DNA of 64,000 nt from the NCBI GenBank assembly GCA_037447655.1, contig JBBHKE010000838.1, forward strand, positions 197,122-261,121, read 5' to 3'. Shown in pieces: positions 22,927 to 58,468 of the stretch (the stretch's first letter is position 1; each line of letters opens with the position of its first letter). Both the position numbers and the translations under genes were made by a program. The notes under the pieces are model-generated. The model was not told where the DNA came from. It searched no databases and saw only the letters and a program-made list of their open reading frames with translations. This DNA comes from Zygnema cylindricum (Eukaryota; Streptophyta; Zygnematophyceae; Zygnematales; Zygnemataceae).

Positions 22927-23927
22927 GGGAACTTTCCCATGCGCTAAAGTAACAGTTATTTTATGTCGTTTTCCTCTATAACTTGGAAAAAAAAAGAGAA
23001 AATCTGCAGCCGTACCAAAAAAAAAAAATACCACCGTACAATTTGCGTTACCTTAAAACTTTATATGTACTGCGGTTTGTCGTTTAGCGCGATGCAGTTT
23101 GTCGTCTAGCGCGTTTCGAGCCACTTTCGCGTCCTTTCATCTCATCTTCAAACTTTATATAAAACCACCTCACGAGGTGATTTTAAATATAGTTCCATGA
23201 GGTGAGCGAATAGGCAGATGTTGTCGCACGTGTCGATTTTTTTTGACAATTTTCGTGCGCGGAGTACCAAAAAAAAAACCCACTGCACGTTTCCAGGTTG
23301 TGCGTGACTTTTTTCCGTACAGTGGCCGTGGAGGGGTCTCGACCAACAGACGCCATTTCGCAAAAGTGAAGTCCGTGAAAGCGCCCTTCTCTCTCTCCCT
23401 CTCCCACTACCACATCTATCTCACACTTCTTGAAACGAAAAACGTCAATAGTGGTATTAAATGAAAGATCTCTTGAAAACAATTTCCTTTTACTATCTTT
23501 GGGCGTATCTTGATGGCAAGTAGAGTGAGAAAAGAAAAAAAATACAATCGGGAAACCATGGCGAAAAGTTTTATAATATGTGACGTCGGCGTTGTCATAT
23601 TTAAGCGTGACGTGCGTGACGTCATAATGTCACAAACCCTAAACATCTGTAATGCCTCCACCTCGACAATGTGGCGTACAGACATTGCGAAGTGATAGAA
23701 ACTGTTCAGCATGCGGGTGGACGTATGAAATTGAAGCCGGGTGGAAGTTTCGCAACATTTTGTGTACCGTTTATTTGTCACATGTTTCGTTACATGTCTA
23801 CGCTTGTCACTTTTTTAAGTAACAAGTTATTTGCGTTTACATTGAAATGCTCTGAAAGCTGTACAGGGATTCTTCGTAAGAACACAAAGTTACAAGATTA
23901 AAGTTTCGGTTACATGGGAAAGTGCCA
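22927..23927. mobile_element. Harbinger-like non-autonomous TIR element, copy 1
   Basis: The left end GGGAACTTTCCCATG and right end CATGGGAAAGTGCC form an imperfect terminal inverted repeat. TAA lies directly outside each end (22924-22926 and 23928-23930), a 3-bp target duplication typical of PIF/Harbinger elements. The interior is shared with 26579-27582 and, inverted, with 28375-28935. No transposase frame is seen. Confidence 0.65.
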
Positions 23928-26191
23928 TAAGCGTGATAAGCCACTCTGATCAAGTGAGTAGGACCATAGTTTAAATTTTAAAATGTGCGAAAACAAGTGG
24001 AAACACTACACCGCGAATCGTTATTAGTGTCAAAGTTTAAATAGTGTTGAAGAAAAATATACCGTCGTCGATGTTAATTAGGATTTTGAAAACAAAAAAA
24101 AGATTTATTTTAATTTCGGCGTTTACGCTAATTTGGGAACAACAAAAATGGAATATTCTCCGTACGATTATATACATTAATATATGTATCCGTACAAAAT
24201 ATTTAAAAATATACACGTCGTCAAATTAAGTATCTGTACCGGTCAGCCTAATTTACGTCGGTTATGTGTCAACGCTATACCGCATACGTAAAGTTTAATT
24301 TCAGTTTTTTTCTGTTTAACATTCACAAAATGGCTATTACACCACGTTGTTTCTTGGTGTAAGCTGGACGTATGTTGGTTGTTCCGTTCGTCCATGTCAT
24401 GTGTATTCTAATAACGTCACTTTTAGGTAGTTTTATCAGAATTAAGTATGTTAATATGTGTCTTAATTGTAATAAGTGTGTTCCCTCGTTTGTCTTTCAA
24501 ACGTCTGACAAGTATTAACGTCAACGTTGTCCTATATTAGAGCAAATATTGACACTAAAATGAACCAAAAAGTACATACTTATCAACCAAATGATCACTC
24601 ACGTAACGTGATTGGTCGCCCAAAATTACACGTGTCCAATTTATATCCACGCAAACATTATGGGATTTTAACGATGCAAAAAAACACGCATGTCTTACCC
24701 GCTGCATTTCCAAAAAAAGCCCGTTCATTTAGTGAGTTGCCATGTTTTACCACGCCTCTTTCATAAAAATCGTCCATTGTCAACCACGTTCATACTCCAA
24801 CGCTCTAAACTAACGCAAATTTTAAAACTTTCCCGCTATCACCGAGTCGTTTTTGTAATCAAAATATTTGTCAAACATAATATTTGATTTAAAATATTGA
24901 ATGTTCAAACTTTGGCGAAGGTTTTCCCTCATTTTTTTCACAAGAGCTTCCTTTCCCTTCCTATATATACTCGCCGTTAACTCCAACAATGGTACTCTTT
25001 TCTCTTCCATTGCCTCTGTTGTTCTACAACCACCGTTGCAGGCGGAGAACCAGCAGTAGTAATGGAAGTAGACATTAAAAGAAAACAGCAGAAACTGTCA
25101 AAACACCTACTCAACAGCCAACTTTGATCCAACACAAAATATGACTCAAAAAGCCAATATGCCTCAAATTTGTCACAGTGATACAAAATACATTAATCTG
25201 ACAATTCCCAAAATTGCAACCAAAATGACCCAGTAAACAATAAGATATGATGTATGGAAGTTTCACAAAAAGTGCCCTTAGAAAATCATATTCCCAAAAC
25301 TGGATGATTCAAAAATTGTCTAAGTCCTAAACTATATCCTCACAGTTAAATACAGTACGGATATGATTCCGCACGAAACAAATGAATCAGACATTTGTTT
25401 CGACGGTTGAGATCAAATACTAAATTCTATACAACGGCGCACATCTTCGTCGAGATCCCAATATGGTCACTTTGGCATGTTGTGACGTGGCATGACCTGG
25501 CGCCACGTGGAGAGGTAGCATTCGGTCGTGGGAATTCCGATGAACGTACGGACGAGTGAAAAGTGGACACGCGCCCGCTTAATGGCCTTGTCGTACAAAG
25601 GTCGTACAAAAAGTACATCGGCAGTAGTACTTTTTTGTACTGTACAGTGTTATGATTGGTTCGTACAGTCATTAGATAGGGGTTGTGAGAGGGAGCTAGG
25701 ACTTAGAAAAATTTGGTAGATGGTCTTCTCTCTCTTTGAGAGTTTGTATATATTGGCATCTTTGCCACCCTATAACTAATCGTATGGTTTAGCGTTTTTC
25801 AAATAATTTTTTTCCTACGGACTCGGGGAGTCAAGGCTGCACAAGGGTGAAGTCAGATTGTCAAATTGTTTACTTATGCAGCAGGGGTTACCATTGAAAG
25901 TGGGTTAGTTAAAAACTATCTAGAGGCTTTCTGAATTTTGTAGTCCAATGGAGGACACATAATTGCACTTGCCTGTGTAGCTAAGGTAGCCATGGCTCCA
26001 CCACTCTCTCTCTCACCTTCAGTGACTACAACAAGTATGAGGGCTAGAGAGAGAAGATGGAGGCATACTGCCTACGCTTTTACTTAATCTATTAAAACCT
26101 AGAAAATACCCCTTAAAATCTATTGATTTCAACAGGTATGCTGAATATGCGCACTATTTCCCTAATTCTATTTTTTTATTGCTTCCTCTAA

Positions 26192-27582
26192 GGGCACTTT
26201 CCCATGTAACCAAAACTTATTATCGTAACTTTGTTTTTTGGCGAAGATTCTCTGTACTACTTTCATAGCATTCTGATGTAACTGAATTAACTTGTTACTT
26301 TAAAAAGTGACGGCTGTAGACGTGGGTGTAATTTGTGGCGATTGTAGACGACTATAAAAATTGCGACAATTGATGATGTTTACAAAATAGCGATGATTCT
26401 ATGCGTCTACATTAGTTACTTGTGACATTGAAGATGTTAAGGTTTGTGACATTTCAACGTCATGCTCAATTATCACAGCCTTGACGTCACAAATTCTAAA
26501 ACTTCTTGCCATGGTTTCTCGATTTTGTTTTGTAGTCGTTTTTCACTCTATTTGCCATCAAAATCTGCCCAAAGATATGGCACTTTCCCATGTGCTAATG
26601 TTGTTATTTTTTTTTGTCATTTTCCTCCACAACTTAATAAAAAAACGTGAAAATCAGTATCTGTTCCAAAAAATTGAAATTACCACCTTACAAGTTACGT
26701 TACCTTAAAACTTTATATGTATTGCAGTTTGTCGGTTAGCGGGATGTAATTTGTCGTCTGGCACGTTTCGTCCCACTTTCACGTTTTTCTAGTTCATCTG
26801 CAAACTTTATATAAAACCACCTCGCGAGGTGATTAAACTTAAGTTCCATGACGTGAGCGAATAGGCAGATATTGTCGCATGTGTCAGAAGTTTTTAGCAA
26901 TTTTTGTGCCCGGAGCACCAACAAAAAAACCCCACTTTACATTTACAGCATGTGCGTGACTTTTTTTCGTTCTCTTTTTTCTGTACAGGGGTCGTGGAGG
27001 GGGTCTCGACTAACGTACGCCATTTCGCAAAAGCAAAGTCTATGAAAGCGCCTCTCTCTCTCTCCCTCTCCCACTACCGCATCTATCTCACAATTATTGC
27101 AATGAAAAACACCAATAAATGTACCAAATTAAAGGTCTCTAAATACAATTTCGTTCGACTATCTTTGGGCGTATTTTGATGGCAAGTAGAGTGAGAAAAT
27201 ACTAAAAAACAAAATCAGGAAACCATGGCATAAAGTTTTATAATTTGTGACGTCGAAGCTGTTATGATTTTAGCGTGACGTCAAAATGTCACAAATCTAA
27301 ACATCTACAATGCCATAAGTAGCCATACGTCTACAACCGTCATCAATTGTCGCGAGCTTTGTATTCGTATACAATCGTCACAAATTACACCCACGTCTAC
27401 ATCTGTCACTTTTTAAAGTATCGATTTCATTTCCTTATATAAAAATGCTATGAAAGTAGTACGGTCATTTTTTAAAGTAACGATTTAATTTCTTTACATA
27501 TGAATGATATGAAAGTATACAAATAATCTTTGCTAAAAACATCATTATAAGACTAAAGTCTTGGTTACATGGGAAAGTGCCC
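26192..27582. mobile_element. Harbinger-like TIR element, copy 2, with an extra inverted arm
   Basis: The ends GGGCACTTTCCCATGTAACC and its near-perfect reverse complement at 27563-27582 bound the element. A second internal start of the same type sits at 26579 and corresponds to the start of copy 1. The segment 26192-26577 is an inverted copy of about 27160-27582, so this locus is a copy-1-type element plus an inverted duplication of its right end. Outer flanks are TAA and ATT, so no clean target duplication. Confidence 0.6.
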
Positions 27583-27674
27583 ATTGTCCTAAGAAATTGT
27601 TTATAAAGATCTTGTCATTTGATACTACTACTAAATCAAAGCGCGATACACAGGCATGGACCGTGTCTTGTTTT

Positions 27675-27800
27675 ATCATGCCATTTTACCATGCCCTTTT
27701 AGCATGCCCGTTTATCATGCCCCTTTATCATGTCCGTTTACCAAGCCCGTTTATCATGCCCATTTAGCATGCCCCTTTATCATGCCCCTTTATCATGCGC
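27675..27800. repeat. About 13-bp tandem repeat (CATGCCCnTTTA unit)
   Basis: Roughly ten degenerate copies of a unit built on CATGCCC followed by a T-rich half, running head to tail. The same short phrase GCATGGACCGTGT flanks both sides of the array. Function unknown. Confidence 0.8.
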
Positions 27801-28374
27801 ATGGACCGTGTTCTGTTTATCAAAACGTCTTAGTACTGTTGTATTATTCAAGTCGTTCATACGAATTTTTGTAGACGCGACCCAAATCAACACAATGATG
27901 GACGATTGACGATTGTCTCCCTGCTAACGTCAACAAACAGGTAACTTTCAAAGTACTCGTTCGGTAATCGTGCTTGACCTTCAAGTCTTGGCTGTTCGTT
28001 CTTGTCAATGAATAAAGATGGAAGTCGCCACATGCACTAAAGAGTCTTAAGCCGTCAATCATTTGTCCGTGACCGTCCGATTATAGGATGATGATAGTTT
28101 AGAAGCTAGCCGTCCTTTTCAATAAACTACGATTTCGTGTCGTAAATTATTTGCTCGATTTTCATATTCATTCATTGACAAGATCATGCAGCCAAGATCT
28201 GACAGTCAAGAACGATGGCCGAGGGAGTAATTTGAAATTTATGTGTTCGCTTACGTTAGCAGATAGACAAAGCTACCCGTTTGTCGACGTAGGCCGAGGG
28301 GTAATGCTACCCGTTTGTTGACGTCGGCCGAGGTACACGCCGTTTACTGGTGTAGACGGACGAAAAGTGGGCCT

Positions 28375-28935
28375 ATTTATAGGTTTTCTTACGGACAATC
28401 AAAGGTCTATAATTTGTGTAAAGATTATTGACGTTTTTCATTGCAAGAATTGTGAGATAGACGCGGTTGTGGGAGAGGGAGAGAGAGAGAGGCGCTTTCA
28501 TGGACTTCACTTTTGTGAAATGTCTTCCGTTGGTCGACCACGACCCCTGTACGGGAAAAAGCGCACGGAAAAAAGTCACGCACAGAAAAAGTCACGCACA
28601 AGCTGTAAACGTGCAGTGGGTTTTTATTTTTGGCACTCCGCGCACAAAAATTGTCAAAAACCTCCGACGCGTGCGATTTTTTTTGTCAATTCGCTCAGAT
28701 CGTGGAACTTAGTTAAAATCACCTCACGAGGTGATTTTATTTGAAGTTTGAATGATGAGTTGTAAGGTCGCTAAAAGTGGGTCGAAACGCGCTAGACGAC
28801 AAACTTCGATACGGTAACGCAAATTGTACTGTGGTAATATCGATTTTTTGTTATGGTTGCGGATTTTCTCGTTGAGGGCTAAGTTTTGGAGGAAAACGAC
28901 AGAAAATAAACCTAACTTTTTCACATGGGAAATAT
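28375..28935. mobile_element. Harbinger-like TIR element, copy 3, inverted and truncated
   Basis: Inverted relative to copies 1 and 2. It shares the palindromic core CACCTCACGAGGTG, the GGGAGAGGGAGAGAG tract and the terminus ACATGGGAAA near 28922. The other terminus is missing, so the copy is truncated. Confidence 0.6.
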
Positions 28936-33380: not shown

Positions 33381-35673
33381 TTGTTGGAGTGTGAGTTGTT
33401 TAACCGGATGTTTTTTTTTTGTTTTTTGGGTGTTTTGTTTTTAGGGTTTTTTGTTTGTAGGTTCTTTTGTTTTAGTGGGTTTTGTCTTTGTGTTTTTTTT
33501 TTGTTTTTGTGTTTTTTGTTTTCACTTTTTTTTTTTTTTTTTCACGCCTTTTTTAAATGTACAGAATATAGGGTCTTGTTGCGACCAGGGCCAGGTCATG
33601 ATAGTGTAGATTTGACTAGCTTTTATGCAACTGTTTTTTTTTTTTTTTTTTTCTTTTAACATTACAAGAAGTCTTCGGTCCACGGTCCTGTAATTAGTTT
33701 CCCATATTGTTTGTCGGTCGAGAGTGTTGTGTGTTTTTAGTTAACGGAGAAGACTTCTCTTTCTTTTTTTTTTAAGTCTGTGTAAAAAAAAATAGTTGAG
33801 AGCTTATTTACCTTCTGAGTCAACGTTTTTTCAGTGGTTTAGTTTTTGAAACCATCTTACAAACTACTACAAAGATGTACGAAAAACTTTTGCAACAAAA
33901 ATGTGGTATAAATGGTAATGACAAAATCCGTTGTCTTATCCGTTCGCTGATCTTGGCTGGAACTGGTTTGACATTATGATTCCTGCTTTTTTTTTCTAAT
34001 ACATCTGAAAGGATATTCTATTTTGTTTTTTATGGTATAGGGTTTTTTAGACTGATCAGTCTCCTTGTTCCTGGTTATGTTATGTACGTTGTATTTTGTC
34101 TTTTTCTGAACATTTTACGTTGTTTTCTTTTCTGGGAGCGTAGGAGAGCAGATGTTTGTACACCGCCCAACGTTATTAGTGTTAAGGACTTTTTAACTTT
34201 AATGCAAAATTATAATTAATAATAAAAAATTAGTTCAAGGAGATGTGATAGATTGTAGTCCAGGTCCTTAAATAGTGTTGTTAACACTATTTTGTGATTT
34301 TTGGCCAGAAAAAGTCGTGACCGAATTAGTGCTATTAACTCTAATAACAATAGGCGGCGTAGATAGTGACTAAAACCAGTGTTTATTAATACTAATGATA
34401 CAATGTGAGTCGTTGTTGGCTTCAATGGTACTGATTGGTTTGGTGCTTGTCCATTTGCCTCCCAACCAGGAAATTGTGGAAATAACACTAAATGTTGTTT
34501 CTTAACGCCAATTCTTTGACTCGCTTAAAGCCAGTTGTGTCATTTTGAACTGAATCATACCAACATAAACCCAACACTGAATTTGTTTACTCTAATAGCG
34601 ATTTGCAGCGTATTTCATTTGATTGCCATTTCCGTGCGTTTGTTCGTAAGTTTGTCCGTACTTTTTTAATGTACCATCTCCGGCCTCTAATGTGTTGTTA
34701 TACGTACCGTTCCCAAACTTCTTATCGCCCTTCAATTCCACTTGCAATAACAATTTTATTAGATCTCACTCTCAATGACACTTTCAATCCCACTCTCAAT
34801 CCCACTTTCAATCCTACAGCCAATCCCACTTTCAATCCCGCTTTTAATCCCACTTTCGATCCCGCTTTTAATTCCTTCTAAATCCTACTTCCAATTCCAC
34901 TTTGAATCCCAATTTCAATACCACTTCTAATTTACCCCACACTCAGAACATCATTCAATCCCACTGTCAATCCCACACTCATTCCCACTTTTAATCCCAC
35001 TTCCAACCATTTTCAGTCCCTCTTCAAGTCCCACTTTCTATCCCATTTTCAACCCCAATCTCAGTCCCACTTTCAATCCCACTCTTAATTCCAATCTCAA
35101 TTTAACTTTCAATCCCACTTTCAATCAAGTTCGCGTTACTCTGTTCTAGCTTACTGTTATAGTTTTGCGTTGTCTTTATGGAACATTGAATACAAGTAAG
35201 ATAAAATAAAATGATGGGTTTTTGTGGTTGGTGGTATCAATTAATGGACCTTTTATGTGTTGGTTAGTGGTACGTAGTGGAAGCAAAAAACTAAGTTTTT
35301 AAGCATTGTTTTGGTTGTCAAATGATAAGTAAAGAGAAAGCAGTTCGATTTTTAGAACTAAATGGGAGTATTGTTATATAAGCTCCAGTAGTAGTTTAGT
35401 ACAATGAGCTATTAGAGGCGACTTATGGTAGTGGCAACCCTAGAGCTCAAGGGGTGTATTGTTTTATAAAGCTCCAGTAGTTTGGTATTAAGAGCTATGG
35501 GAGTAGACTTTCAAATGTTAAAGACGATTATTTAGAGTTCTTTGGTTCAGTATGAGCTGCAACTAGTGTGGATTACTGATATTTGTGAGCGTGGAGTTTC
35601 ATTTGACGGGTGTATATAGGTCAAGCTATTGCGTATGGGTAAAGTACGACGTTTTGTTTCGGTACGTTGTAAT
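33381..35673. other. Intergenic region 3' of TFIIE-beta
   Basis: T-rich 3' UTR-like sequence at 33381-33660 with several long T runs, then unremarkable AT-rich DNA with a few TATTAGTGTTAA MITE-like fragments (about 34158-34400) and the 12-bp minisatellite. No gene supported. Confidence 0.55.
34738..35125. repeat. 12-bp minisatellite (CACTTTCAATCC)
   Basis: About thirty degenerate head-to-tail copies of a 12-bp unit based on TCAATCCCACTT. In one frame it reads as an Asn-Pro-Thr-Phe repeat, but no start context, splice signals or homology suggest it is translated. Confidence 0.8.
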
Positions 35674-36020
35674 CATAGTTGTTTAAATCGCGCGATTTTC
35701 TCATTTTTTCCGATTTTTACGTTTTATTGGTGACTTTTGAAAAAATCGCAAAAAAACGCGATGTACTTTCTGTCCGGTAAACTGAACATAAATTTTACGG
35801 AAATGTACGGAATTGTACCGAAAATGTACAGACTAGTACGAAAAGAGACGGGAATTGTACGGAAAATGTTCAAACTGCGGTACATATAAAATTCATTTTT
35901 TTTACATGTACGGAATGGTACGGATTCACAATCACTAACGATTTTTCAAATCGACCTCTCCGATTTCTACGTATTATTCGCGCGTTTGAATCGTGAGTAA
36001 AATACGATTTGAACAACTAT
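35674..36020. mobile_element. hAT-like MITE (CATAGTTGTTCAAATCG family), copy 1
   Basis: Left end CATAGTTGTTTAAATCG and right end CGATTTGAACAACTATG form a terminal inverted repeat. Flanks GTTGTAAT and GTTGTAAA are an 8-bp target duplication with one mismatch. The interior is rich in TGTACGG/CCGTACA words. Non-coding. Confidence 0.7.
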
Positions 36021-36061
36021 GGTTGTAAATTACAACCATAGTTGTTCAAATCGTATTTTAC
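35997..36061. repeat. Perfect 32-bp inverted repeat with 1-nt centre
   Basis: Arms at 35997-36028 and 36030-36061 are exact reverse complements around a single A at 36029. The left arm is the right end of the adjacent MITE plus its flank; the right arm is an inverted second copy of that end. Confidence 0.92.
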
Positions 36062-36132: not shown

Positions 36133-36748
36133 GGGTGCGTCTCCATGTACTTGAAACTTAGAGAACTTACTTTGTTTTTTAGCGCAGATCCGGCGGACCC
36201 GGATTTCGGGTGTCCCTATGTGTACCAAACGAAGTTGTCACTTAAGGGCGTGACAATTGTAGACGTCGACAATGCTGGTGACGGCTGTCGACAATGTACA
36301 ATCTGTGATGACGCACGCTATTTTTGTAACTGCTTGTGACGTCACATGACTTTTCGTGACATTGTAGACGTACCGCCGTCCAGCCTCTGCCGTTTCACGG
36401 TTGAAGAAGATGCAATTTGCCTTTGCGTCTTTTGTCCGCTCGACGTGAAATGGCATCGGATCTTGAGACCCCTGGCGAAATAAAATCCGTACCACGCGCA
36501 AACGGACAAAACCAAACAAATTGTGTACTTTGCTTTGTCGAACCTGAACGCAAACGGACAAAACATAGCGGATCGTGCACTTTTCGTCGTCGCTTGAATT
36601 CTTTTGAAATTTCTTGAACAAATTTTACACTTGCGACTACGTGTCTCTATTTGTTTTTCGAAACGGATGAAACTTACGCGGTACGGCTCTAAGTTTTACA
36701 GGAAAACGACAGAAAAAAACCCTTACTTAAGCACATGGAGACGCACCC
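36133..36748. mobile_element. Harbinger-like MITE (GGGTGCGTCTCCATG)
   Basis: Exact inverted termini GGGTGCGTCTCCATGT and ACATGGAGACGCACCC, with TAA on both sides (36130-36132, 36749-36751). The interior has GTGACGGCTGT and GGAAAACGACAGAAA words shared with the 22927 and 26192 elements, so it is a diverged member of the same group. Carries no transposase. Confidence 0.75.
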
Positions 36749-37007
36749 TAATATGAAGGATTCCGCGTTTCACCTTCCTGTTGGCAGGATCAAAAATCGC
36801 ACTGAAATCGTACGGCCATCACAATCGGCTGGTCCGACGGAACGTGAAAGTACAAACAGAATCGTAGCTCCTTTACGGAAGCCGTCAGATCTTTCAGATC
36901 TACGCTTGCAATCCGCCGGAGAATTTCGGGAATCTTCCGTTGACTCGTGTAATCGAGCTACAAACCCGGCGCTTAAGCGATTCTAACGTCTTTTGCTGAC
37001 AAATCCT

Positions 37008-37543
37008 TGTTAAGATTTCAATGTGTAAATTCAGTTCAGTTTTGTGTTCAGTTTGTGTTTATGCTAAATTAATGATCAGTTGAAGTCGGCAGTTATGTTT
37101 TTTCCCGGAACTTCCTGTTTAGTCTGAGTGTCGGTTAAAGTTCGTGACGTGGTACTATACGGTTGGTGAATTATTTAGTGCGTAGAACCGTGGTACGGTC
37201 ATAGGTCCAGATCACGGTTAGTTTCGGCGCACTAATGTTTTATTAGGCGTTTCAGCGCCTAAGTGTCAAAAATTGGTGAAAGTGGAGTTTGAGTGGAATT
37301 GTGACAGAAGTAGTATAGTTCTGTCTTCTGGTGGTGTTGGAAGAAAGTATTTTAGGAGGAGTATTGTATAGTTTCATATATCAGAAAAGGAAGTGAAGTT
37401 GAAGGAAGAAAGGGGATGTAAAAAGTTCGATTGAATATATTTTCTATTTGGTCGAGTTCCTTTGTTATCTGTGAATTTCTGATGTCTGGAATTTCTGAAT
37501 GCTTCCGCTGAAGATGTATGTTTAAATGATCCTTTTTATAACA
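37008..37543 (+). repeat. 5' LTR
   Basis: 536 bp, TG...CA bounded, preceded by the target duplication ATCCT. By eye it differs from the 3' LTR at one position (CGGAACTTCC versus CGGAACATCC at about 37113). Confidence 0.93.
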
Positions 37544-37545
37544 AG

Positions 37546-37561
37546 TGGTATCAGAGCGGGT
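37546..37561 (+). other. Primer-binding site complementary to initiator tRNA-Met
   Basis: TGGTATCAGAGCGGGT starts two bases after the 5' LTR. TGGTATCAGAGC is the standard plant retrotransposon primer site for the 3' end of initiator methionine tRNA, most typical of Copia-type elements. Confidence 0.9.
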
Positions 37562-37700
37562 AAAAGCTGCTAGTAGTAGAAAAGCTCCCAGTAGTAAAAA
37601 TCACTGTCATCAGTCAGTGTGGCGAGTGTTGCGGCAATGGGAGGAAAGAAGAAGACCTCTCCCTCTCCCTTTCCTCTCCCTCTTCCCTCCCTCTATCAAA

Positions 37701-38621
37701 ATGAACGATTTATTCACACCGGCGTGGTTCCCGACTAAGTCTCCCCTTAGTGCATCGGATGGACTCGACGTTGAGCTCGGAAAAGCCAACAATGAAGACT
37801 TTGAAGAAAGAAATAGTGTGGACAGATCCTTTAAAAAGAAAGCGAAAGACATTGAGCATGACATTAAAAGCGCTGAAAGTCTTTTGTCGCTTTTGGAAGA
37901 ATCTCAGCATAGGACAAAGGCACTTGTTAGAAAGGCAGATTTAGAAACACTTAGAAGGAACATGGAGGGAAAATTTGAAATGTTAAAATTTTTGGCGGGA
38001 AAAACGAAGACGGAGCTTGATTCTCTGAGGGCGGAAAATGAAAAAAACATGAAAATGGATGGATGTGGACAAGGATCAGCTTCTTACAGGATGAGAATGA
38101 ACATCACAAATAATTTGACTCTCAAATTGAAAAAAATTGTTAACAAAGTTTCAGATTTGAGAGAGGCCATGGAGAGAGACAACAGAGAAGTTGTGGAAAG
38201 GACAGTTTTTACCATTACTGGTACGAAACCAGACCGTACAATGGTGGATAACCTGGTAGAAACTGGAAAGAGTGATGAAATTTTCCATCTTGCCGTACAA
38301 AAACAAGGAAAAGGAGCAGCAGAGACAGCTTTGTATGAGATGGAGGAGAGACATGGAGCCGTACAAGAGGTTATGAAAAATATAGTGGAATTACATGACC
38401 TCTTTTTGGAACTGGCCAATCATGTGGAGGCACAGGGAGAACTGTTTGAAACTATCGAACTGCAGGTCAGATCAGCTATAGATGACGTCACTATCGGAGT
38501 CGGGAAACTGAAAGTTGCTCGGGAGATCCAAAAAGATACTCAAAAATGGCAACTTTGGGGTGCCCTTGCAGTTTTTATTATAATACTAATCATTATCTTC
38601 TCCATTCTTTACTTTATGTAG
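37701..38621 (+). CDS. SYP1-type Qa-SNARE syntaxin, intronless, inside LTR element
   Basis: 306 residues, the normal full length for plant plasma-membrane/cytokinesis syntaxins (SYP11/12/13 group). The start ATG at 37701 gives MNDLF, the typical start of this group; an upstream in-frame extension from 37545 would run through the primer site and is rejected. Visible parts are an acidic N-terminus, the helical Habc region from about residue 40, the linker signature VFTITGTKPD, the SNARE helix (about 215-280) with the zero-layer glutamine at about residue 245 in HVEAQGEL, and a C-terminal membrane anchor (284-306, WGALAVFIIILIIIF). Qa-SNAREs pair with Qbc/R-SNAREs to fuse vesicles with the plasma membrane or cell plate. 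No stop or frameshift interrupts it. AATAAA overlaps the region right after the stop. It is preceded by a CT-rich leader as in normal plant 5' UTRs. Intronless structure also occurs in some native SYP1 genes, so it does not alone prove an mRNA origin. Confidence 0.93.
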   Translation: MNDLFTPAWFPTKSPLSASDGLDVELGKANNEDFEERNSVDRSFKKKAKDIEHDIKSAESLLSLLEESQHRTKALVRKADLETLRRNMEGKFEMLKFLAGKTKTELDSLRAENEKNMKMDGCGQGSASYRMRMNITNNLTLKLKKIVNKVSDLREAMERDNREVVERTVFTITGTKPDRTMVDNLVETGKSDEIFHLAVQKQGKGAAETALYEMEERHGAVQEVMKNIVELHDLFLELANHVEAQGELFETIELQVRSAIDDVTIGVGKLKVAREIQKDTQKWQLWGALAVFIIILIIIFSILYFM

Positions 38622-40194
38622 AAATAAAACCATATGTTAAACTTGATATATGTTTATACTAGTATATGTCTACACTAGTATATGTTTCGGCGAAGTGTTA
38701 AGGAATTTTGTACAAATCGACTTTTTATACTTTGGCAGCTAGTGCCAGTTTTTAGTTAAGATGAATAAGTGAGAAAGTTGTGTGATGCCATCCTTATCTA
38801 CCAGTTGCTCTTGTAAGGTTCACATATAGAAAGTCGAGGCAATTCCTTGTTGCCGGAGCATATTCGGGGTATAAGTAAAAACGAAACATTGTTTTCAGTA
38901 AGGATAGTAAGGATTACATTCTGGATGGGAGGATTCAGTATGTTTTTCACAAGCCACATTGTAGACTACATCCCTAAAAGTCCAAGATTTTTTTTTTGCA
39001 GTTCATTTTGAATAACTTTAATTTTTTCCGCATCGAATTTACGTATCGATTTTACTCGAAGTGTTTTGTTTTCCAAATGGATAAAGTATTGGCTTTTCTG
39101 GCTAACTATTTTTGTAAAATGTGTACACGCTTGTTTTGTAAATGTCCTGTTTTATACGAATCCTGTTTTAACCATTTGTTTTCAGTGCTCTGTTCAAAGT
39201 GTATAAATTTGCAGATTAAAAATTAAGTGGTGATGATGCTGCTTGAGTGATCTTGTGTTAGTGCACAGCCCATCATTTTTAGTGACAGTTATTCACTGTC
39301 ATTCGAGTGAGCGCATTTTTGAAGCAAAAACATAATTTGGTGTTAATAACACTTTTTTGTTGAGTGGCCTATAATGAGCCACGTGGCAAACCATAATTTG
39401 GTGTAGTTAATTCCAATAAAATGTCAACGCTGATTATTCACTAACTTTAACTGCATTTGGTGGTGTATTTCTCATGGAATGTCGCTTTAACTTCAAAGCG
39501 CCAAAATAGTATGGATGTGTATCGTCAACAAGAAAGCCAAGTATTGAGCTTTTTGCATCTTTTTGCATCACGTTTGCTCAATTTATTTCATGGCAAAAAC
39601 TTCATAATTTTATCTGCAAACAGAAAAATGATGCTCGTGAAAGATTAAATTTTGACATGCAAATGTTTTTTAAACAATTTTGACGAAACAACATTAACAA
39701 AATGCACATTAGAGTTTCCATAAAAAAAAACAGCAGTAACTGTTGGTAACTTGGCATGTAATTTCTATGTTTTAGTTAAGCCAAAAACTATTTCATCATT
39801 TATGATGATGATAAAGTGGCATTACAATGATCCATGGTGATGATGATTTTGTTGTCCTCTCAAATTCCAAATTACATGAAGTTACCGACAAATTTCTGAA
39901 TGTTGATTTTTTCGGAGGAAAGCTTCAGGTCTTTTATTTTAAGGTGCCAACTGGTATAAACGTATAGAGAAAAGTGCATTTTTACAGACAAATGGTTACA
40001 AAACTCTTATGTAATAGAATATTTAGTAGAAGTTAGAAATATCTATAAGAATTCATAATCAGCCAATGCGCACGTACTTACAGACCTAAAATGTATAAAC
40101 CTAAATTTAGAATCATCTAGAGGAGTCTCCGGTGTTGGTTTTATTCGTGTGCATCGTTTTATCTTTATGTAATGTTGCCTGTGAATCTCGTTTT
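38622..40194 (+). other. Non-coding 3' interior of the LTR element
   Basis: Contains AATAAA right after the syntaxin stop and AT-rich sequence. A stretch at about 39360-39442 has ATAATGAGCCACGTGGCAAA, also present near 48008 and, diverged, near 49535 outside the element. No polypurine tract is evident directly before the 3' LTR. Confidence 0.6.
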
Positions 40195-40730
40195 TGTTAA
40201 GATTTCAATGTGTAAATTCAGTTCAGTTTTGTGTTCAGTTTGTGTTTATGCTAAATTAATGATCAGTTGAAGTCGGCAGTTATGTTTTTTCCCGGAACAT
40301 CCTGTTTAGTCTGAGTGTCGGTTAAAGTTCGTGACGTGGTACTATACGGTTGGTGAATTATTTAGTGCGTAGAACCGTGGTACGGTCATAGGTCCAGATC
40401 ACGGTTAGTTTCGGCGCACTAATGTTTTATTAGGCGTTTCAGCGCCTAAGTGTCAAAAATTGGTGAAAGTGGAGTTTGAGTGGAATTGTGACAGAAGTAG
40501 TATAGTTCTGTCTTCTGGTGGTGTTGGAAGAAAGTATTTTAGGAGGAGTATTGTATAGTTTCATATATCAGAAAAGGAAGTGAAGTTGAAGGAAGAAAGG
40601 GGATGTAAAAAGTTCGATTGAATATATTTTCTATTTGGTCGAGTTCCTTTGTTATCTGTGAATTTCTGATGTCTGGAATTTCTGAATGCTTCCGCTGAAG
40701 ATGTATGTTTAAATGATCCTTTTTATAACA
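40195..40730 (+). repeat. 3' LTR
   Basis: 536 bp, same length and ends as the 5' LTR and nearly identical to it, followed by ATCCT at 40731-40735. Confidence 0.93.
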
Positions 40731-42367
40731 ATCCTTGCCGTCATCCTTGCAGTCAATATTTGCCGTCAATCCTTGCCGTCAATTCGACTTACTAGAAGTT
40801 TCCCTCGGGGAACATATTCCAATATGCTACGCCGTCGAGACGCTAAACGTTAAGTATTCGTACGTAAAAACTAAAAGTTGACCTAGTTTTGTTACGCTTT
40901 TCTTGAAGTTAGGAAACAAGACAGAGAGGAATGCTGAAATATGTTTAAATGGAAATTTCACGGCAGCCTGCGTAATTTAAAGACGTGTGTACGTGGCGCA
41001 AACCGTGTGTCGGTGCGATTTTGTGTACATCTGCCGTTGCATTAGTTGTGTCGGCAGGTTACAGTAATTCATGTACGGACAGTCGGAAGGGTCCAGGAAG
41101 AAATGGACCCGGAAGTACTTGTTACGGTGCATAGGCTCTTGTACGGTTCAGCCTTCTGATTGGATCGTACGCCAGACGATAGATTGGTAAGTGTATAAAG
41201 ATAGGACAGACGTCGATTTGGAAAAACTATATAACTTTTTGGATGACAATTATGCACTCATTTTTCTAGTACTTTGGAAGTGATTATTTATGAATACGTT
41301 TATCGGTTTTCAGTTAAGTTTTGTTTATTTAGTTCTTGCGGTGGAAACTTGTCCTCTTGCCAAGTTTCCTATGATTCTTGAAATTGGTTCATAAGTCTTG
41401 CTTTGCTAAAGTAGGCTCGTGAATGAATGAAGTTTCAAATCTATAATTTTAAGCTTGATTTTTTTTTTACAAAATTTTTGGAATGCGCTATTTTTTTTTT
41501 TTTAGTCTTTGTTGTTGGCAAAGGAAGTTGGTAGCTGTCACGATTTGCAATATATCTGTGTTTATTTGACTTTGTACGGTAAAGAGGGCTTGGAATTAGG
41601 TCGGTCACAGCAAGTAGTTGGAGAGAGGGAGAGGGAGAGGGAGGAGGAGCAGCTTTTGCTTAAGTCATCCGTAGAATGGGTTTTATAAAGAATCAAAGTT
41701 TACAAGGGGGCCTCTCACAACAATTGAGATGTGAAGAATCAACATTTCCAATCGTTTGGGAGAGAGTACTTTTTGATTGTAAGTCTATTTCTCCCTCATT
41801 CATTGATGTAAAAAAAAATGTAGCTTCAATTTTCATATTGATTTTTTTTTAATTGTTTCTAAGAGTTTAAAAAATATAGTATTTTTTTAAAGATCGTATA
41901 GGAACTTTTAAGCATTTGAAGTCTTTTAGAGGACTTTAGGTTTCCATAATGTTTTTTTGCCGTAAGGTTCTTGATGGTTTTATAAGATATTAACATTATT
42001 CGTTTATGTCTACTTCTATTTTGTTGGGGAACTAAGGCTACGAGGGTACAAAATCGAAATTAATAAGACCCTACACTTTGTTGACACGGTAAACTCTACC
42101 CGTATTGACATCCGACAAGAGGCAATGCGACACAAACCACACATAGTATCTTTGTGGCCTTGCCATTAAGAACATCATCAAGACACTGTAAATGACTATT
42201 AGTGCAAATAACACTAATTTGACAATCCTAATTTTTGACCGATGAACCTGAAAATAATTTTGTGATACTATATTTTCCTTTACCTTCATTAAGGTATGAT
42301 TTAATTAGTGTCCACCACACTAGTTCAAGAGGTTCTAAAATAGTGCATTGTACGAAATGTGCCCGAT

Positions 42368-43268
42368 CATAGTTGTTCAAAACGCATTTTGTGCACGATT
42401 CAAACGCGCGAATTATACGTAACGAACGCATTGAACGATTTGAAAAAATTGTTTAAATCGGTAATCAATTTTCATCCGTACTATTCCGTACATGTTAATA
42501 AAATGAATTTTACATATACCGCAGTTTGTAAGTTTTCCGTTAAATGAGCGCTAAAACAATTATATATATTTAAATATGTATCACACTCCATCTGCGTTTC
42601 GGAATTTTCTCATCGACTAGTAGCGGACAGTTGTAAATCGGGATTTTGCGAAATGGCGTAGTGCCAGGTTCAAATCTCGGCCAACGCAATTTTTTTGTCA
42701 GTCCGTCTGATACTCTGATACTATCTGACAGGCAGCCATGGCCGCCTTCTCTCTCTATGTCTTAAACAGCATACGACTGCCTTCTCTCTCTATCTCTCGA
42801 AGAGCATACGACTGCAAAAAAATAAAGTACAGACCATGTACAATTGACATTTTTCACATTCCATGGCGGTTTCGTTTTCAACATTCCATGGCGGCTTCTT
42901 TCAAAAAAAATTGAAGAAGACGTTCATACAGTTTTCAAACTTACCGCGCTCAAATAGTGTGACATTTCAACGTCTCTTTTCGAAAATGTCCGTACATTTT
43001 CGATAAAATTACGTACATGTTCCGTGAATTTTTTGTTCAGTTTACTGGACAGAAAGTACTAATAACTGCGACATATGTTTTCGTCAAATTTCGTACATTT
43101 CTGTAAAAAACCGCACATTTTACGGGAAATACTGTACTTTTCCCATAAATTGTACTTGCAGTTTACCGGACATATAGTACATCGCGTTTTCTGCGATTTT
43201 TTCAACAGTCGCGAATTATACGTAGAAATCGGAGAAATTGAAAAAGTCGTACGATTTGAACAACAGCG
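42368..43268. mobile_element. hAT-like element (CATAGTTGTTCAAATCG family), copy 2
   Basis: Left end CATAGTTGTTCAAAACGC, right end ACGATTTGAACAACAGCG. Flanks TGCCCGAT and TGCCTGAT are an 8-bp target duplication with one mismatch. At 900 bp it is longer than copy 1 and shares the GTACATTTTCG/TGTCCG words. Confidence 0.6.
42664..42688 (+). other. tRNA-like T-arm and acceptor relic
   Basis: CCAGGTTCAAATCTCGG resembles a T-arm (box B-like GGTTCAAATC) followed by CCAACGCA as a 3' acceptor strand. No matching 5' acceptor strand or D-arm is visible upstream, so it is a fragment, perhaps of a tRNA-derived repeat. Confidence 0.3.
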
Positions 43269-45218: not shown

Positions 45219-45673
45219 CATAGTTCAAAAGTAGGTGACCGTACGCCCATACAATATGCCTATTGTATGCAAAACATACAATATGGCCTTAAGACCCATA
45301 TTGTATTGGCCGCAAAATGAAATAAAATAGTAGCAGGGTTGAATGCACATGGATCGATAGAGAATTAAACGTCATGCCTAAATTTGAAAAAAAAATCGGA
45401 CAAAAAAAACTTTTTCTATGAGTTTTGAGCGAATTTTTATTAAAACCGTTAGATTTGGACAATCTGACGGTCGTTGATGAAAGCAACGATCTAAGAAGAT
45501 CACATGAAAAGCCCATAACACAACTTACGATAGGACTGTCGTCAGATTAGGACGATCGGACGGTCTCTGATAAAAGTAGCGATCTAAAAGATCGCATGGA
45601 AAGCCCGTAACACAACTTACGCTAAAGGCGGCCTATTTAAGGCCTACGAAAAAGCGCCTACTTTTGAACTATG
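45219..45673. mobile_element. hAT-like MITE (CATAGTTCAAAAGTAGG family), copy 1
   Basis: Inverted termini CATAGTTCAAAAGTAGG and CCTACTTTTGAACTATG with an exact 8-bp target duplication CTTTCCTG on both sides. The interior has the nested palindrome ATACAATATG/CATATTGTAT and ACGATCGGACGGTC. Confidence 0.85.
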
Positions 45674-45844
45674 CTTTCCTGCCATTGGCCTAAAAGGACA
45701 AAACCTGCAAGCAAGACTACGTGACATCTACAGTCATGCTTTACCGTTTTTATTCGTACAAATTCGTAGTACAAATGTACTCTGAAACTGTACCTTCTCA
45801 CAGTTACGAACTACATTCATATTCGTGTACGGAATTTAGACAGG

Positions 45845-46781: not shown

Positions 46782-49700
46782 CCCTCTTTTCTCCCTCTCC
46801 TTCTCCCCATTCCCTGTTTCGTCTTTTTGATTTTCCTGTCGTTTTCACGCTCTCTCCCTCTTTCTTTTTTCTACGTTTGACAGTTCACTTTTTTTTTCTT
46901 TTTCTCTCCCTTTCCTCCCCTTCCCCCTCCCTTTATCCCTAACTCCCCCCCTACTCCCGCTCCCTCTCCCCCTCCCCCCTCTCCCCCCTCCCCCTTCCCT
47001 TCTCCCTCCCCCTCCCCCCTCTCCCCTCTCCCCTCTCCCCCCCTTCCCTTCTCCCTCCCCCTCCCCCTCCCCCTCTCCCCTCTCCCCCCCCTCCCCCTTC
47101 CCTTCTCCCTCCCCCTCCCCCTCTCCCCTCTCCCCTCTCCCCCCCCCTCCCCCTTCCCTTCTCCCTCCCCCTCCCCCTCTCCCCTCTCCCCCCTCCCCCT
47201 CTCCCCTCTCCCCTCTCCCCTCTCCCCTCTCCCCTCTCCCCTCTCCCCTCTCCCCTCTCCCCTCTCCCCTCTCCCCTCTCCCCTCTCCCCTCTCCCCTCT
47301 CCCCTCTCTCTCCCCCCCCCCCCCCCCCCTTCTCCCCTCTCCCTCTTCCCTTCCCTATAATTGTCTATTTCCTTATGTGATTGAATTCCATTGTTAATCT
47401 ATTAAGTCTGTCTGTCCCTTTTTATCTCTTTTTTTTTTTTTTTTTTTTAGAGTTTTGTAACTGAATATATGTATTTTTTTTTTTGTTTTTGTGAAGGATT
47501 TTGTCGGCACTCGATCGTAATGACTATCTGATCATTTTAAATTTTTTCCTTTTAATTCTGTAATAATGTTATATCTTTTTATTATTATTTAAATAAATCT
47601 TTTTATTGCTCTGTAATAATGTCTTTTTTGTTATTTTGTAATGATGGTTTTTTTTATTTTTCTTTAATTATGTCTTTTTAGCTTTTGTCCGGTGCCCATT
47701 ATTATTTTTATCGCTCTAATTTGACTGCATTTTTTTGTTTTTGAACTGACACGATATATTAGTGTAATACCACTACACCGTGTATCGCTATTAGTGTTAA
47801 TATTTTTTTTGCCACCTAAAACATCTTTACTCCGTACACACTTGTCCGGTTTTCAATTTGAGACCGCCAATCGGAAGCGAATCTTACCTTTCAATCGCAA
47901 CCGTCAGATCCACGATCTGACAAGCGTTTACGGAGAAAAAATGTTTTAAGTGGCAAAAAAAACATTTAACACTAATAGCAATTCACGGTGTACTTAGTTA
48001 AGTGTTCCATAATGAGCCACGTGGCAAAACACAATGTAGCGTAGTTGATTATAATATAACAACTCTAATAGTTTTCCAACTTTAATTGTGACGGGCCGTT
48101 ACAGGTAGCCCAAGAAAACCTATGCCTTATTACAATGCCTTATTAGATTTTGTGAATTTTATTACTGTTAAAGCGGATTTAGTAACAACTACGCTAAATG
48201 CTTGTCGATATAATATATGCTGTTGACACTCGATAAATGTGATATACACTTATTGAATGTTATTTATACTTATCTTTGATTCATTGGATTCCTATTTCAG
48301 CTTTGTATATGCTATTTTCTCATTGCTGAAAGCTATTTCAGGACTTTACTTTATCATATTATTTTCCTTAAATTGTTGTTCTTTCAATATTTTCCTTCAA
48401 AATGTTCCTTACAAATTCTTATTCCTTGCATATTTTCCTTCTAATTGTGAGGATATCAGGACCGAGGAGGCCTTATTGGACACATCGACTCTGAAAAATC
48501 CGAAAGAACTCGCCGATCCCAACAGCCGATTCGCCCATTTCCGAGGAGTCGAGATTCACTACAAAATTTCAAAGCCTTTTGTGTCTCTCTCCGAATTCGA
48601 CGAAAAAGTTTTGGGAGGAGAAGGAACGACGATGGTCGGGACTCCGGCGGTTCTTCTCCATGGATTCGGAGCCTCCCTCTTCTCCTTCGAAAAGATTCTT
48701 CGTCCTTTAGCGACGCTTCTCGGAGCTCCGACTTTGGCTTTCGATCGCCCGGCTTTCGGATTGACCAGTAGAATGAAGCCGCCCCGCAATAATGGGAAAT
48801 GGGGTTTTTGTCCTCCGGAATCGAATCCGTATTCGAGCGCTTTTTCGGCCGACGCCACTTTAGGGTTTGAGACTTTTCTGATGCAGCAAATCAGTGGACA
48901 TGCGAAAGGGACGATTCTTGTCGGGTAGGGAGGGAGAGGGAGGGATGAAGGAGAGAGGGAGGGAGGGAGTTGAGGGCTGGAGGGAAAGAAAGAGGGAATA
49001 GGGAAAGAAAGGGGAAAACTGGGAAAGATAGCCACTTTAGGTTCTGAGGCGTTGGGTCTTGATGCAGCAAACCAGTGGACATGTGAAAGGACGATTTCTA
49101 TTTGGCAGTTAGAGAGGGAGGGATAGAGAGGGAGGCGGGGAGGGAAGGTAAGAGGGGAGGGAGGAAAAAGGATAGGGAGGGAGGAAGGGGAGAAAACGAA
49201 GTAGATCTGTCCAAAGAAGTTTAATGTTGGGCCTCTGGGCCTATGTTTGAGATAGTCACTTTTTAAAAGTACAGATAATTGTGGGTCTACTTCTAACTAG
49301 AGTAACATTGTCAAAATAAATTAAATGTGTCTAAATAAACTAAATTATTCTCGATCACTAATTGACTAAGCAATGAAATTTTTGGAGTCTTTTATGTGTA
49401 AGCAAACTACATGTCTCTTACCAAAGTAATTGACTGCATCATCCATCGCTAGAGTTAATAACGTAATTTTGGAGCTGTAGTAATGCTTTTTGTGCTCCAA
49501 ATCATAAATCAATGTTACTAATGGTGTAAGTACACGGTCCACAATAGGCCACGTTGTAAAACATAATTTAGTGTAGTTGATCATAGTAAAATGTTAACGC
49601 GAGTAATTCACCGACTCTACTAAAAATGGGCGGTGTATTGACTAAACAAAGTATATTTTTGGACTATTTTTTGACAAGCACTCACCAGTGTATCTAGCGA

Positions 49701-55530: not shown

Positions 55531-56160
55531 AAAAGATACTTGAAGTTTTTGGTGAAATTAAAGAAAAAAAAAAGAAAAAAAAATGCAATATAAAGTGACT
55601 TACAAAAAGTAGTTTAAAAGTAGGTCTTTCGAATACGCTTTCCATCCATTTTGCTTGAAAAGTGAAGTTGAGGATTCAAATATTTATAGAAATAATCCTG
55701 CATTTGGAAGAGGAAAATTTGTTAAATTCACTTGCTCCTTTTCTATTAAACCCTTTTAGAATCTCGATATGGAAGGGAATTATGTAGAAATCCGATATGA
55801 CTAAGCTTGGTCGATACGTCGATATGCTAGGAGGAAGCGCGATTTAAAGTTACTAAATTTGAAGTTAAGGTATAGGTAATTAGGTATCTGTAACTTTGTA
55901 ACTTTGGACCAGAGGTCGCAAAAGTCAAAATTTTACATAACCGAAACCGACCGTTATTTTTTTTCAAAATCTGAGTAACCGAAGCCCGACCGGGTTATGT
56001 CACGCTCCAAAATTGTTAACCGTTAACTGACCGGCGTTTACGAAAAAAAAAGTTAGCCGAAACTCGATTTCTCGCGACTAACCGTGCCCGCCCGTAACCA
56101 AAAAAGTACAAAATTATATAATGTACGACGTATGAATAAGCCAATTATTACGATTTGTTC

Positions 56161-56708
56161 CATAGTTCAAAAGTAGGTGAAAGTAGGCCCATACAATATG
56201 CCTATTGTATGCAAAACATACAATATGCCCTGAAGACCCATATTGTATTGGTCGAAAAATGAAAAAAAATAGTTACAGGGTTGAGTTGCACATCGATCGA
56301 TAGAGAATTAAACGTCATGTCTAAATTTTGAAAAAAAATCGGACAAAAAAAACAAATTTCTGTGAGTTTTGAGGTAAAACTTATTTAAACCGTTAGATTC
56401 AGACGATCGGACGGTCTCTGATCAAAGTAGTGATCTACGAAGATCACATGAAAAGCCCATAATACAACCTACGATAGGACTACCTGTCATATTAGCGTCT
56501 GCAAATTTGAACGTCCGCGTGTTTTAGTTCGCTAAAAAATTTCGTCCGTCGGCGTGCGCTGAACTATGATCATACGTCAGATTCGTACGTCCGTACAAGA
56601 GTGTCCACAACGAACACCCATACAGTATGCCTACTCTACGCGAGTTTAGTGCCAAGTTTTGTGCGCCTACCAAAGGCCTACCATAAAAACGCCTACTTTT
56701 GAACTATG
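56161..56708. mobile_element. hAT-like MITE (CATAGTTCAAAAGTAGG family), copy 2
   Basis: Termini CATAGTTCAAAAGTAGG and CCTACTTTTGAACTATG with an exact 8-bp duplication ATTTGTTC at 56153-56160 and 56709-56716. Confidence 0.85.
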
Positions 56709-56750
56709 ATTTGTTCCCTTAGATTTGCGAAATGAATAGTGTTTACTAAC

Positions 56751-57165
56751 GTGTCAGATTTGCGACGCTTTGTCGCGTTCCTTAAGATTTGCGAAATGAA
56801 TAGTGTGCTACACCGTGAATCGTTATTAGCCATATGTACTCTATATCAGCACCCCAAAATTTTGACATAGATACCTTAAATAGAACAAATTACACTATTT
56901 AAGGAAATGGACCATAATCTGCCACGTCTCTTGGCACTAAATTTGAATGAATGACGCTATTTTTTTCTTTACTCTAATAATTTCTATAGTCTAATAACGA
57001 TTCGCGGTGTACCGTGTCATATTTGCGACGCTTTGTCGCGTTCCCTAAGATTGTGAAATGAATAGTGTTACTACCGTGTCAGATTTGCGACGCTTTGTTG
57101 CGTTCCCTAAGATTTGCGAAAAAAATAGTGTTACTACCGTGTCAGATTTGCGACGCTAATCATGA
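56751..57165. repeat. About 61-bp tandem repeat interrupted by a MITE
   Basis: Unit ACCGTGTCAGATTTGCGACG...AATAGTGTTACT occurs about 3.5 times (from 56751, 57012, 57071 and 57134). A TA-target MITE sits between units one and two. Confidence 0.85.
56811..57009. mobile_element. Stowaway/Tc1-mariner-like MITE inserted in a tandem repeat
   Basis: CACCGTGAATCGTTATTAG and CTAATAACGATTCGCGGTG termini. Comparison with neighbouring uninterrupted repeat units shows a single TA at the empty site and TA on both sides when filled. Confidence 0.85.
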
Positions 57166-57422
57166 TGTCACGTACCTCCACGATACTAAAGAGTACAAAG
57201 TACAATAATGCTGGATTGTATGGACTGTACAAAATTTTCATTTTTCTTGGTTTTTTGGTTGACCGACCGTAACCGACCGTTTTTTTTTCTGGTGAATCAA
57301 CCGACCGCAACCGCCCGGCCCTCAAAATTTGGCAACCGAATCCGTTCCGGATCCGGCGCGGGCGGTCGGTTAACGGTCGGTCACGGTTTCGGTTGACCGT
57401 TTGCGACCTCTGCTTTGGACTA

Positions 57423-57497
57423 CACTGTGAATCGCTATTAGTGTTTATGCTTTTTTTTGCCGCTTAAAACATCTTTTTTTAATAGCGATACACGGTG
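57423..57497. mobile_element. Short deletion derivative of the TACACCGTG MITE family
   Basis: 75 bp, CACTGTGAATCGCTATTAG and AATAGCGATACACGGTG termini with TA on both sides; almost only the ends remain. Confidence 0.75.
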
Positions 57498-57594
57498 TAC
57501 TCGAACCTTTCAGGTATCTCACTGGACAATATATGGCGATATTTTTTGATTTCGATAATATGTGGCTGCCAGAATATTGCCGCAGGGAATAGAG

Positions 57595-57863
57595 CAATTC
57601 AAAAGTAGGCGTTTTTATGATAGGCCTTTAGTCGGCGCCTTTATCGTAAGTTGTGTTATGGGCTTTTCATGTGATCTTCTTAGATCGCTAATTTTATTAG
57701 AGACCGTCCGATCGTACGAATCTTGTAGATAATTTTTTTTGGTCCGAATGTTTTAATTGGTCCGAATAGGTCCAAATACAATATGGGTCTTAAGGTCATA
57801 TTGTATGTTTTGCATACAATAGGCATATTATATGGGCCTACTTTCACCTACTTTTGAACTATG
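57595..57863. mobile_element. hAT-like MITE (CATAGTTCAAAAGTAGG family), copy 3
   Basis: Inverted relative to copy 2. Exact 8-bp duplication GAATAGAG at 57587-57594 and 57864-57871. The left terminus lost two bases (CAATTCAAAAGTAGG). Confidence 0.8.
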
Positions 57864-58155
57864 GAATAGAGGAGAAGGAAGTTGAGTTGGCGTACTTTTA
57901 CAAATCAATAACGCGCATGGACATAGTCACATGCTGTTGAGGTAAAACTAAACGTCGACCGTCAAATTTCATTTTCAACGGTGAAGTTTAAGCGTCGACC
58001 GCCAGATTTCATTTTCAACGATGAAGTCTAAATACCGTTTTAACTGGTTTTTCTGTGTCAAAACAGTTTTTTTACAAAAAAAGACCGTAGTCCATATCGT
58101 TTTTTTTTAACAAAACAAATCGATTGAAACCCTGCCGTAAAACTTCACTTCATAG

Positions 58156-58468
58156 AATAGTTCAAAAGTAGGTGAAAGTAGGCCCATACAATATGCCTAT
58201 TGTATGCAAAACATACAATATGACCTTAAGAGTTAAGACCCATGTTGTATTCGGACCTATTAGGACCAATTAAAACATTCGGACCAAAAATTGGACCAAT
58301 TAAAACATTTGGACCAAAAAAATTTGTTTCCACCGTCAGATTCGGGTGATCGGACGGTCGCTGATCAAAGTGGCGATCTAAGAAGATCACATGAAAAGCC
58401 CATAACACAACTTACGATAAAGGCGCCGACCAATGGCCTACCATAAAAACGCCTACTTTTGAACTATG
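58156..58468. mobile_element. hAT-like MITE (CATAGTTCAAAAGTAGG family), copy 4
   Basis: Termini AATAGTTCAAAAGTAGG and CGCCTACTTTTGAACTATG; flanks CTTCATAG and CTTCATGG match at seven of eight bases. Confidence 0.75.

Follow-up and report, generated by a model that had tools for sequence, protein, structure and literature searches.

Analysis of a 64,000-nucleotide stretch of the Zygnema cylindricum genome (GenBank assembly GCA_037447655.1, contig JBBHKE010000838.1, positions 197,122 to 261,121 of the forward strand; hereafter the window, numbered from its first letter) reveals a long terminal repeat (LTR) retroelement of 3.7 kb that carries a syntaxin gene between its two repeats. The element is bounded by a 5' LTR at 37008-37543 and a 3' LTR at 40195-40730, both on the + strand and in direct orientation, each 536 bp in length and each with TG...CA termini. 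The two copies are identical at 535 of 536 positions, the sole mismatch being a T/A difference at offset 104, and apart from its 3' partner the 5' LTR has no match elsewhere in the window at an E value of 1e-3. Just two bases inside of the 5' LTR is the + strand sequence TGGTATCAGAGC (37546-37557), which we take to be a primer-binding site for the plant initiator-methionine tRNA of the kind used by many LTR elements. This is the only match to TGGTATCAGAGC in the window when up to one mismatch is allowed on either strand. Since 0.25 such matches are expected by chance, and at least one match occurs in 23 of 100 shuffled controls, the position of this site counts for more than its presence. A reversed orientation of the element is ruled out by the location of the primer site inside the left LTR together with the lack of any other such match on either strand.

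The outer edges of the element carry a target-site duplication, ATCCT, with the left copy at 37003-37007 adjoining the 5' LTR and the right copy at 40731-40735. This duplication is weaker evidence than usual because the right copy falls within a 13-bp minisatellite at the right flank (40729-40783, unit CAATCCTTGCCGT) whose units contain ATCCT, and the motif is present three times within 40731-40800. A preliminary description of this DNA had proposed a single LTR-element insertion, and that proposal is borne out by the LTR pair, the TG...CA ends, the presence of ATCCT on both sides and the placement of the primer site two bases from the LTR.

The interior of the element contains only one long sense frame, a single-exon + strand reading frame at 37701-38621 that comprises 306 codons from start to stop and encodes a Qa-SNARE with an N-terminal Habc domain, a SNARE motif and a hydrophobic C-terminus, the last read directly from the sequence. 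A frame of this length is well beyond what the base composition provides, as among 1000 second-order Markov copies of the internal region no ATG frame on the + strand exceeds 188 codons, versus 306. Its identity as a syntaxin is established by a match to the Pfam Syntaxin domain (PF00804, N-terminal Habc) at 86.5 bits over a cut-off of 26.7, by a search of the PDB with the encoded protein that returns syntaxin-1A at E 4.3e-13, and by an alignment of residues 207-299 to the syntaxin-1A chain 2m8r_A at E 1.2e-10. An AlphaFold single-sequence model of the protein (mean pLDDT 68.7) has as its best fold match chain 3c98_B, which is syntaxin-1 with Munc18a, at E 6.4e-4; this is the only one at or below 0.001 among 779 matches. 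The protein begins with MNDLF, and when layer positions are taken from syntaxin-1A, all 16 SNARE layers fit. Glutamine 245 occupies the zero layer, and the 15 other layers are non-polar (V, V, I, L, F, L, V, then F, I, V, A, V, G, L, A). Thus, the cargo is a complete but diverged syntaxin. The frame, the Pfam Syntaxin score, the PDB match and the fold match uphold the earlier claim of a complete 306-residue Qa-SNARE. The companion claim that every functional mark is kept holds for the MNDLF start and for Gln245, but "every" is too strong given that the Pfam SNARE domain (PF05739) scores 14.3 bits, which is under its cut-off of 26.8. A search for a second syntaxin in the window gave only a chance-level match (E 4.9), and no syntaxin relative was confirmed in collections of genome contigs and viral contigs; the first 25 bases of the LTR likewise have no match in the viral contigs.

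We scanned 11 frames with Pfam, consisting of the syntaxin and ten frames located in the 3' part of the interior or at its end, drawn from the 34 frames of at least 38 codons that overlap the element interior. None of the 11 contains a retroelement domain, and the ten frames other than syntaxin gave only weak matches below cut-off. The element is consequently a non-autonomous LTR retrotransposon without recognised gag-pol. The + strand orientation of the syntaxin frame and the lack of a retroelement domain in 11 of 34 frames agree with the preliminary description, in which a syntaxin in sense orientation had been placed where gag-pol would be. Downstream of the syntaxin is a + strand non-coding part of 1573 bp (38622-40194) that has no long sense frame and no recognised retroelement domain. 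An AATAAA is present at 38623, one base beyond the syntaxin stop codon. A GTAAGG...T10GCAG pair at 38898-39001 (104 bp end to end) is a possible unspliced intron and, if so, would point to unspliced RNA or DNA as the source of the capture. Further downstream, a + strand segment (39356-39453) shares 74% of its bases with 47994-48088 and, over part of its length, 76% with 49548-49619; it probably derives from a dispersed repeat of the host.

The age of the insertion follows from the single difference between the LTRs. Using a rate of 1.3e-8 per site per year, which is the rate employed by Kim et al. 2017 (PMC5664825), the insertion would date to ~0.07 Myr, and a rate of 7e-9 would give ~0.13 Myr. 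The insertion is thus recent, indeed very young. Over this period ~0.86 substitutions are expected in the syntaxin frame, with an upper limit of ~4.8, and only 4.7% of substitutions in this frame would create a stop codon. Intactness of the present copy is uninformative on function because so few substitutions are expected since insertion, and for the same reason we reject it as a sign of selection since insertion. The preliminary description had treated intactness as a mark of function, which is not sustained for an insertion this young.

More can be learned from the divergence of the protein before this jump. For these comparisons we used syntaxin-1A together with working versions of the sequences of the Arabidopsis syntaxins SYP132 and SYP121, so that all comparisons involving the latter two are provisional. 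The cargo shares 34% identity with SYP132 and 32% with SYP121, versus 52% between those two, and 28% with syntaxin-1A. Its resemblance to the plasma-membrane SYP12 and SYP13 syntaxins of land plants consists of the MNDL(L/F) start, the Habc domain, the glutamine zero layer and the hydrophobic C-terminus; it differs from them in having only about one-third identity, in a Pfam SNARE score below cut-off and in its location within a transposon. Scores are also lower than those of its plant counterparts, with Pfam Syntaxin/SNARE bits of 176.5/65.4 for SYP132, 173.8/70.3 for SYP121 and 86.5/14.3 for the cargo. Against the syntaxin-1A chain 7xsj_B, SYP132 scores 77.2 bits and the cargo 52.8. In a four-way alignment, lone changes at sites where the other three proteins agree number 13 in the cargo, 5 in SYP132 and 7 in SYP121, a count that is biased if the cargo branched before the SYP132 and SYP121 paralogs parted. 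Special acceleration of the cargo was considered and is unsupported, despite its lower Pfam and phmmer scores relative to SYP132 and its 13 lone changes, because raw identity to syntaxin-1A is equal for the cargo, SYP132 and SYP121 (57 of 205 positions each).

The manner in which this divergence accumulated points to selection on the protein. In a neutral, substitution-only decay simulation started from the cargo frame, none of 300 runs still had an open frame at 52% identity. Additionally, sites common to both plant proteins and syntaxin-1A are retained in the cargo at 29 of 42 positions while sites shared by the plant proteins only are retained at 26 of 63 (Fisher p 0.006, calculated without correction for relatedness). 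Given that identity to the plant syntaxins has dropped to about one-third, yet the frame is open and the SNARE layers are kept, coding selection has probably acted on the cargo through most of its past, prior to this jump. A host gene is a likelier site for this earlier selection than the element family.

Expression from the present copy is another matter. TATA-like sites are located at 37377, 37436 and 37537, and six ATGs lie between the site at 37436 and the syntaxin ATG; LTR-driven production of syntaxin is therefore predicted to be poor. The portion of the + strand leader that extends from the primer site to a CT-rich tract (37558-37655) contains an ATG at 37637 with G at both -3 and +4, a context that we take to be strong. 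This ATG opens a 33-codon + strand upstream reading frame (37637-37738) that overlaps the syntaxin start in another frame, and it may be a former gag start. The CT-rich tract itself (37656-37694, + strand) is just ahead of the syntaxin start and resembles simple repeats elsewhere in the window, and it may be a remnant of a host 5' untranslated region. RNA folding of the leader gave no notable structure signal (z 0.24). The suggestion that capture allowed the syntaxin to gain LTR-driven expression is thus doubtful, as the frame opened by ATG 37637 runs across the syntaxin start.

We also compared the syntaxin frame with host sequences from the same window. Its third-position composition (A.33, C.15, G.24, T.27) lies close to that of two of ten host segments chosen by eye for this control, namely a Kelch frame (.35,.14,.23,.29) and a minus-strand frame at 9.7 kb (.36,.13,.25,.27). 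The other eight segments spread widely, for example.23,.21,.36,.19 at 32 kb and.19,.26,.25,.29 at 48 kb. The composition of the syntaxin frame is therefore consistent with a host origin, without proving it. A Pfam scan of ten host frames placed the Kelch frame and an EF-Tu-type GTPase frame above cut-offs, the latter presumably resembling plant mitochondrial GUF1, in agreement with the view of a plant taken in the preliminary description. Two alpha/beta-hydrolase-like frames and one nucleotidyltransferase-like frame are below cut-off, and five frames have no match. No RNA families at the gathering threshold and no tRNAs were found in the 64-kb window.

The surroundings of the element are rich in other repeats. 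Approximately 260 bp to its left is an element at 36133-36748 that resembles a miniature inverted-repeat transposable element and that we take to be PIF/Harbinger-like; its inverted ends read GGGTGCGTCTCCATG, and TAA adjoins it on each side. The right part of this element (36688-36738) resembles segments at 28879-28928, 22937-22987 and 26588-26636. Inverted blocks at 35678-36021 and 42368-43264 are 77-85% alike and flank the LTR element on both sides, and they are possibly part of a larger fold-back element that received other insertions. There is also a perfect inverted repeat at 36000-36058 that has arms of at least 29 bp and a 1-base spacer, the scanned region having begun at 36000. Direct and inverted repeat copies that are 76-84% alike are clustered at 22928-28932, and a repeat family with direct and inverted copies that are 84-97% alike occupies 45219-45676 and 56158-58471. 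Finally, a minisatellite of ~30 degenerate 12-bp units (ATCCCACTCTCA) spans 34763-35126.

Our interpretation of this locus, which we hold to be probable, is that of a non-autonomous LTR retrotransposon in which a complete host-derived Qa-SNARE gene stands at the place of gag-pol and is followed by 1.57 kb of other DNA. The LTR pair, its ends, the primer site, the complete frame, the lack of recognised gag-pol and the recent insertion are direct observations; the events that produced this arrangement can be proposed as follows. The syntaxin would have been acquired during reverse transcription, through a switch of template involving the RNA of the element and a transcript of the host, with the element RNA starting in the 5' LTR and being primed at 37546. 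An autonomous relative that shares its LTRs and primer site would then have provided in trans the enzymes that copied and integrated the resulting chimera. According to this scheme the protein would have diverged before the jump while under coding selection, most probably during its time as a host gene. The present copy would be a passenger, with the upstream ATGs impeding its translation from the LTR. A passenger is indeed the likeliest status of the cargo.

Several observations weigh against this interpretation. The sequence next to the 3' LTR has no recognised polypurine tract, with no run of seven or more purines in the final 69 internal bases; the nearest such run is AGAGGAG at 40119, located 69 bases ahead of the 3' LTR. 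Atypical polypurine tracts exist, but because none is recognised near the 3' LTR, second-strand priming is unexplained. The 3' part contains only one run of seven or more A residues, an A9 at 39722 that might be the remnant of a 3' poly(A) tail, and an equally long A run is present in the flank at 41810. The putative repeat fragment and the GT...AG pair fit genomic DNA as well as they fit a spliced transcript. Additionally, the case for a host origin of the frame comes from the family to which it belongs and from its composition, rather than from an identified parent gene.

A special case of this same interpretation is that the syntaxin is a fresh capture that has experienced no selection within the element. 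A near-identical host syntaxin would exist, the copy would have been made no more than two jumps ago, and the captured frame would be destined to decay. The LTR age of ~0.07 or 0.13 Myr, with less than one substitution expected in the frame, is in line with such a history, as is the third-position composition that falls near two of the ten host segments. Nothing speaks directly against this version, and we regard its chances as evenly balanced.

Alternatively, the element could represent a mobile SNARE lineage in which the syntaxin has been kept coding within an element family through many transpositions because it helps either the host or the element, perhaps through localisation of the element's particles or RNA to membranes. 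In its favour are the distance of the cargo from the plant syntaxins (34% and 32% versus 52%) with its low Pfam scores, an open frame with all 16 SNARE layers fitting despite that divergence, a larger number of lone changes (13 versus 5 and 7) and the recent jump of this copy. However, the equal identity to syntaxin-1A and the bias in the count of lone changes leave acceleration unsupported, a diverged host gene accounts for the same facts, no second copy was seen in the window, and the upstream ATGs oppose efficient translation from the LTR. We therefore view a mobile lineage as unlikely. The fuller proposal, that the syntaxin is a long-standing passenger of an LTR family, that a SNARE family has been spread and diversified by retrotransposition, and that the protein may serve element particles at membranes, is one to which we give little credence. 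Least credible of all is that a native syntaxin gene happens to be framed by two LTRs that inserted independently, or that the arrangement arose in assembly. Although the bare observation is of one syntaxin between two repeats and the target duplication sits in a minisatellite, we reject independent LTRs flanking a native gene since the same orientation, the 99.8% identity, the primer site inside the 5' LTR and the outer-edge duplication denote one insertion.

Host genes carried by plant LTR elements have been described previously. In three pepper genomes, LTR elements contain 105, 123 and 86 annotated NLR genes, the available text giving no share that is complete, and ~72% of these LTR-borne NLRs are in elements that could encode neither gag nor pol (Kim et al. 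2017, PMC5664825). The same study suggests that ~4-10% of all genes in plant species may stem from duplication by LTR elements and reports that purifying selection on LTR-borne NLRs of the CNL-G2 group does not differ significantly from that on normal NLRs. The pepper elements are like the one described here in having genes between LTRs, mostly without gag or pol, and machinery that is presumed to act in trans. Pepper NLRs have lost introns relative to their parents, and the cargo frame here is a single exon, which may reflect a similar loss. They differ from the present case in that the cargo here is a syntaxin known from one copy. The preliminary description considered a gene as the sole cargo of an LTR element to be new, which is not supported given the pepper NLRs in gag-pol-free elements. 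The syntaxin is thus a new cargo, not a new kind of cargo, since annotated genes in gag-pol-free plant LTR elements are already known (PMC5664825).

Other systems provide further comparison. In a review that covers Bs1 and Rider, it is said that transduced segments can be full-length genes, and Bs1 of maize is described as carrying pieces of three genes that lack any full-length open reading frame (PMC13317346). Bs1 is therefore similar in being an LTR element with transduced host gene sequence but differs in having three partial genes where there is one complete gene here. An annotation-based survey of rice and sorghum lists 672 and 1,343 LTR-captured genes, of which some are expressed and under purifying selection, with the elements of one sorghum pair measuring 12.7 and 10.5 kb versus the 3.7 kb of this element (Jiang and Ramachandran 2013, PMC3726574). 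TRIM elements, as treated in PMC4717578, are also LTR elements without their own coding capacity that have acquired exons without introns, their cargo being fragmentary in contrast to the complete cargo here. Of the titles and abstract openings listed from the open-licence literature, none concerned a SNARE or syntaxin carried by an LTR element.

This locus consequently provides a clean and very young case of a complete membrane-trafficking gene within an LTR element that lacks recognised gag-pol, in which the ends, the primer site and the cargo can all be read within 3.7 kb. If it is a single fresh capture, then it constitutes one further case of a documented process. If sister copies exist, then selection on a captured host gene inside a retrotransposon would be directly measurable.

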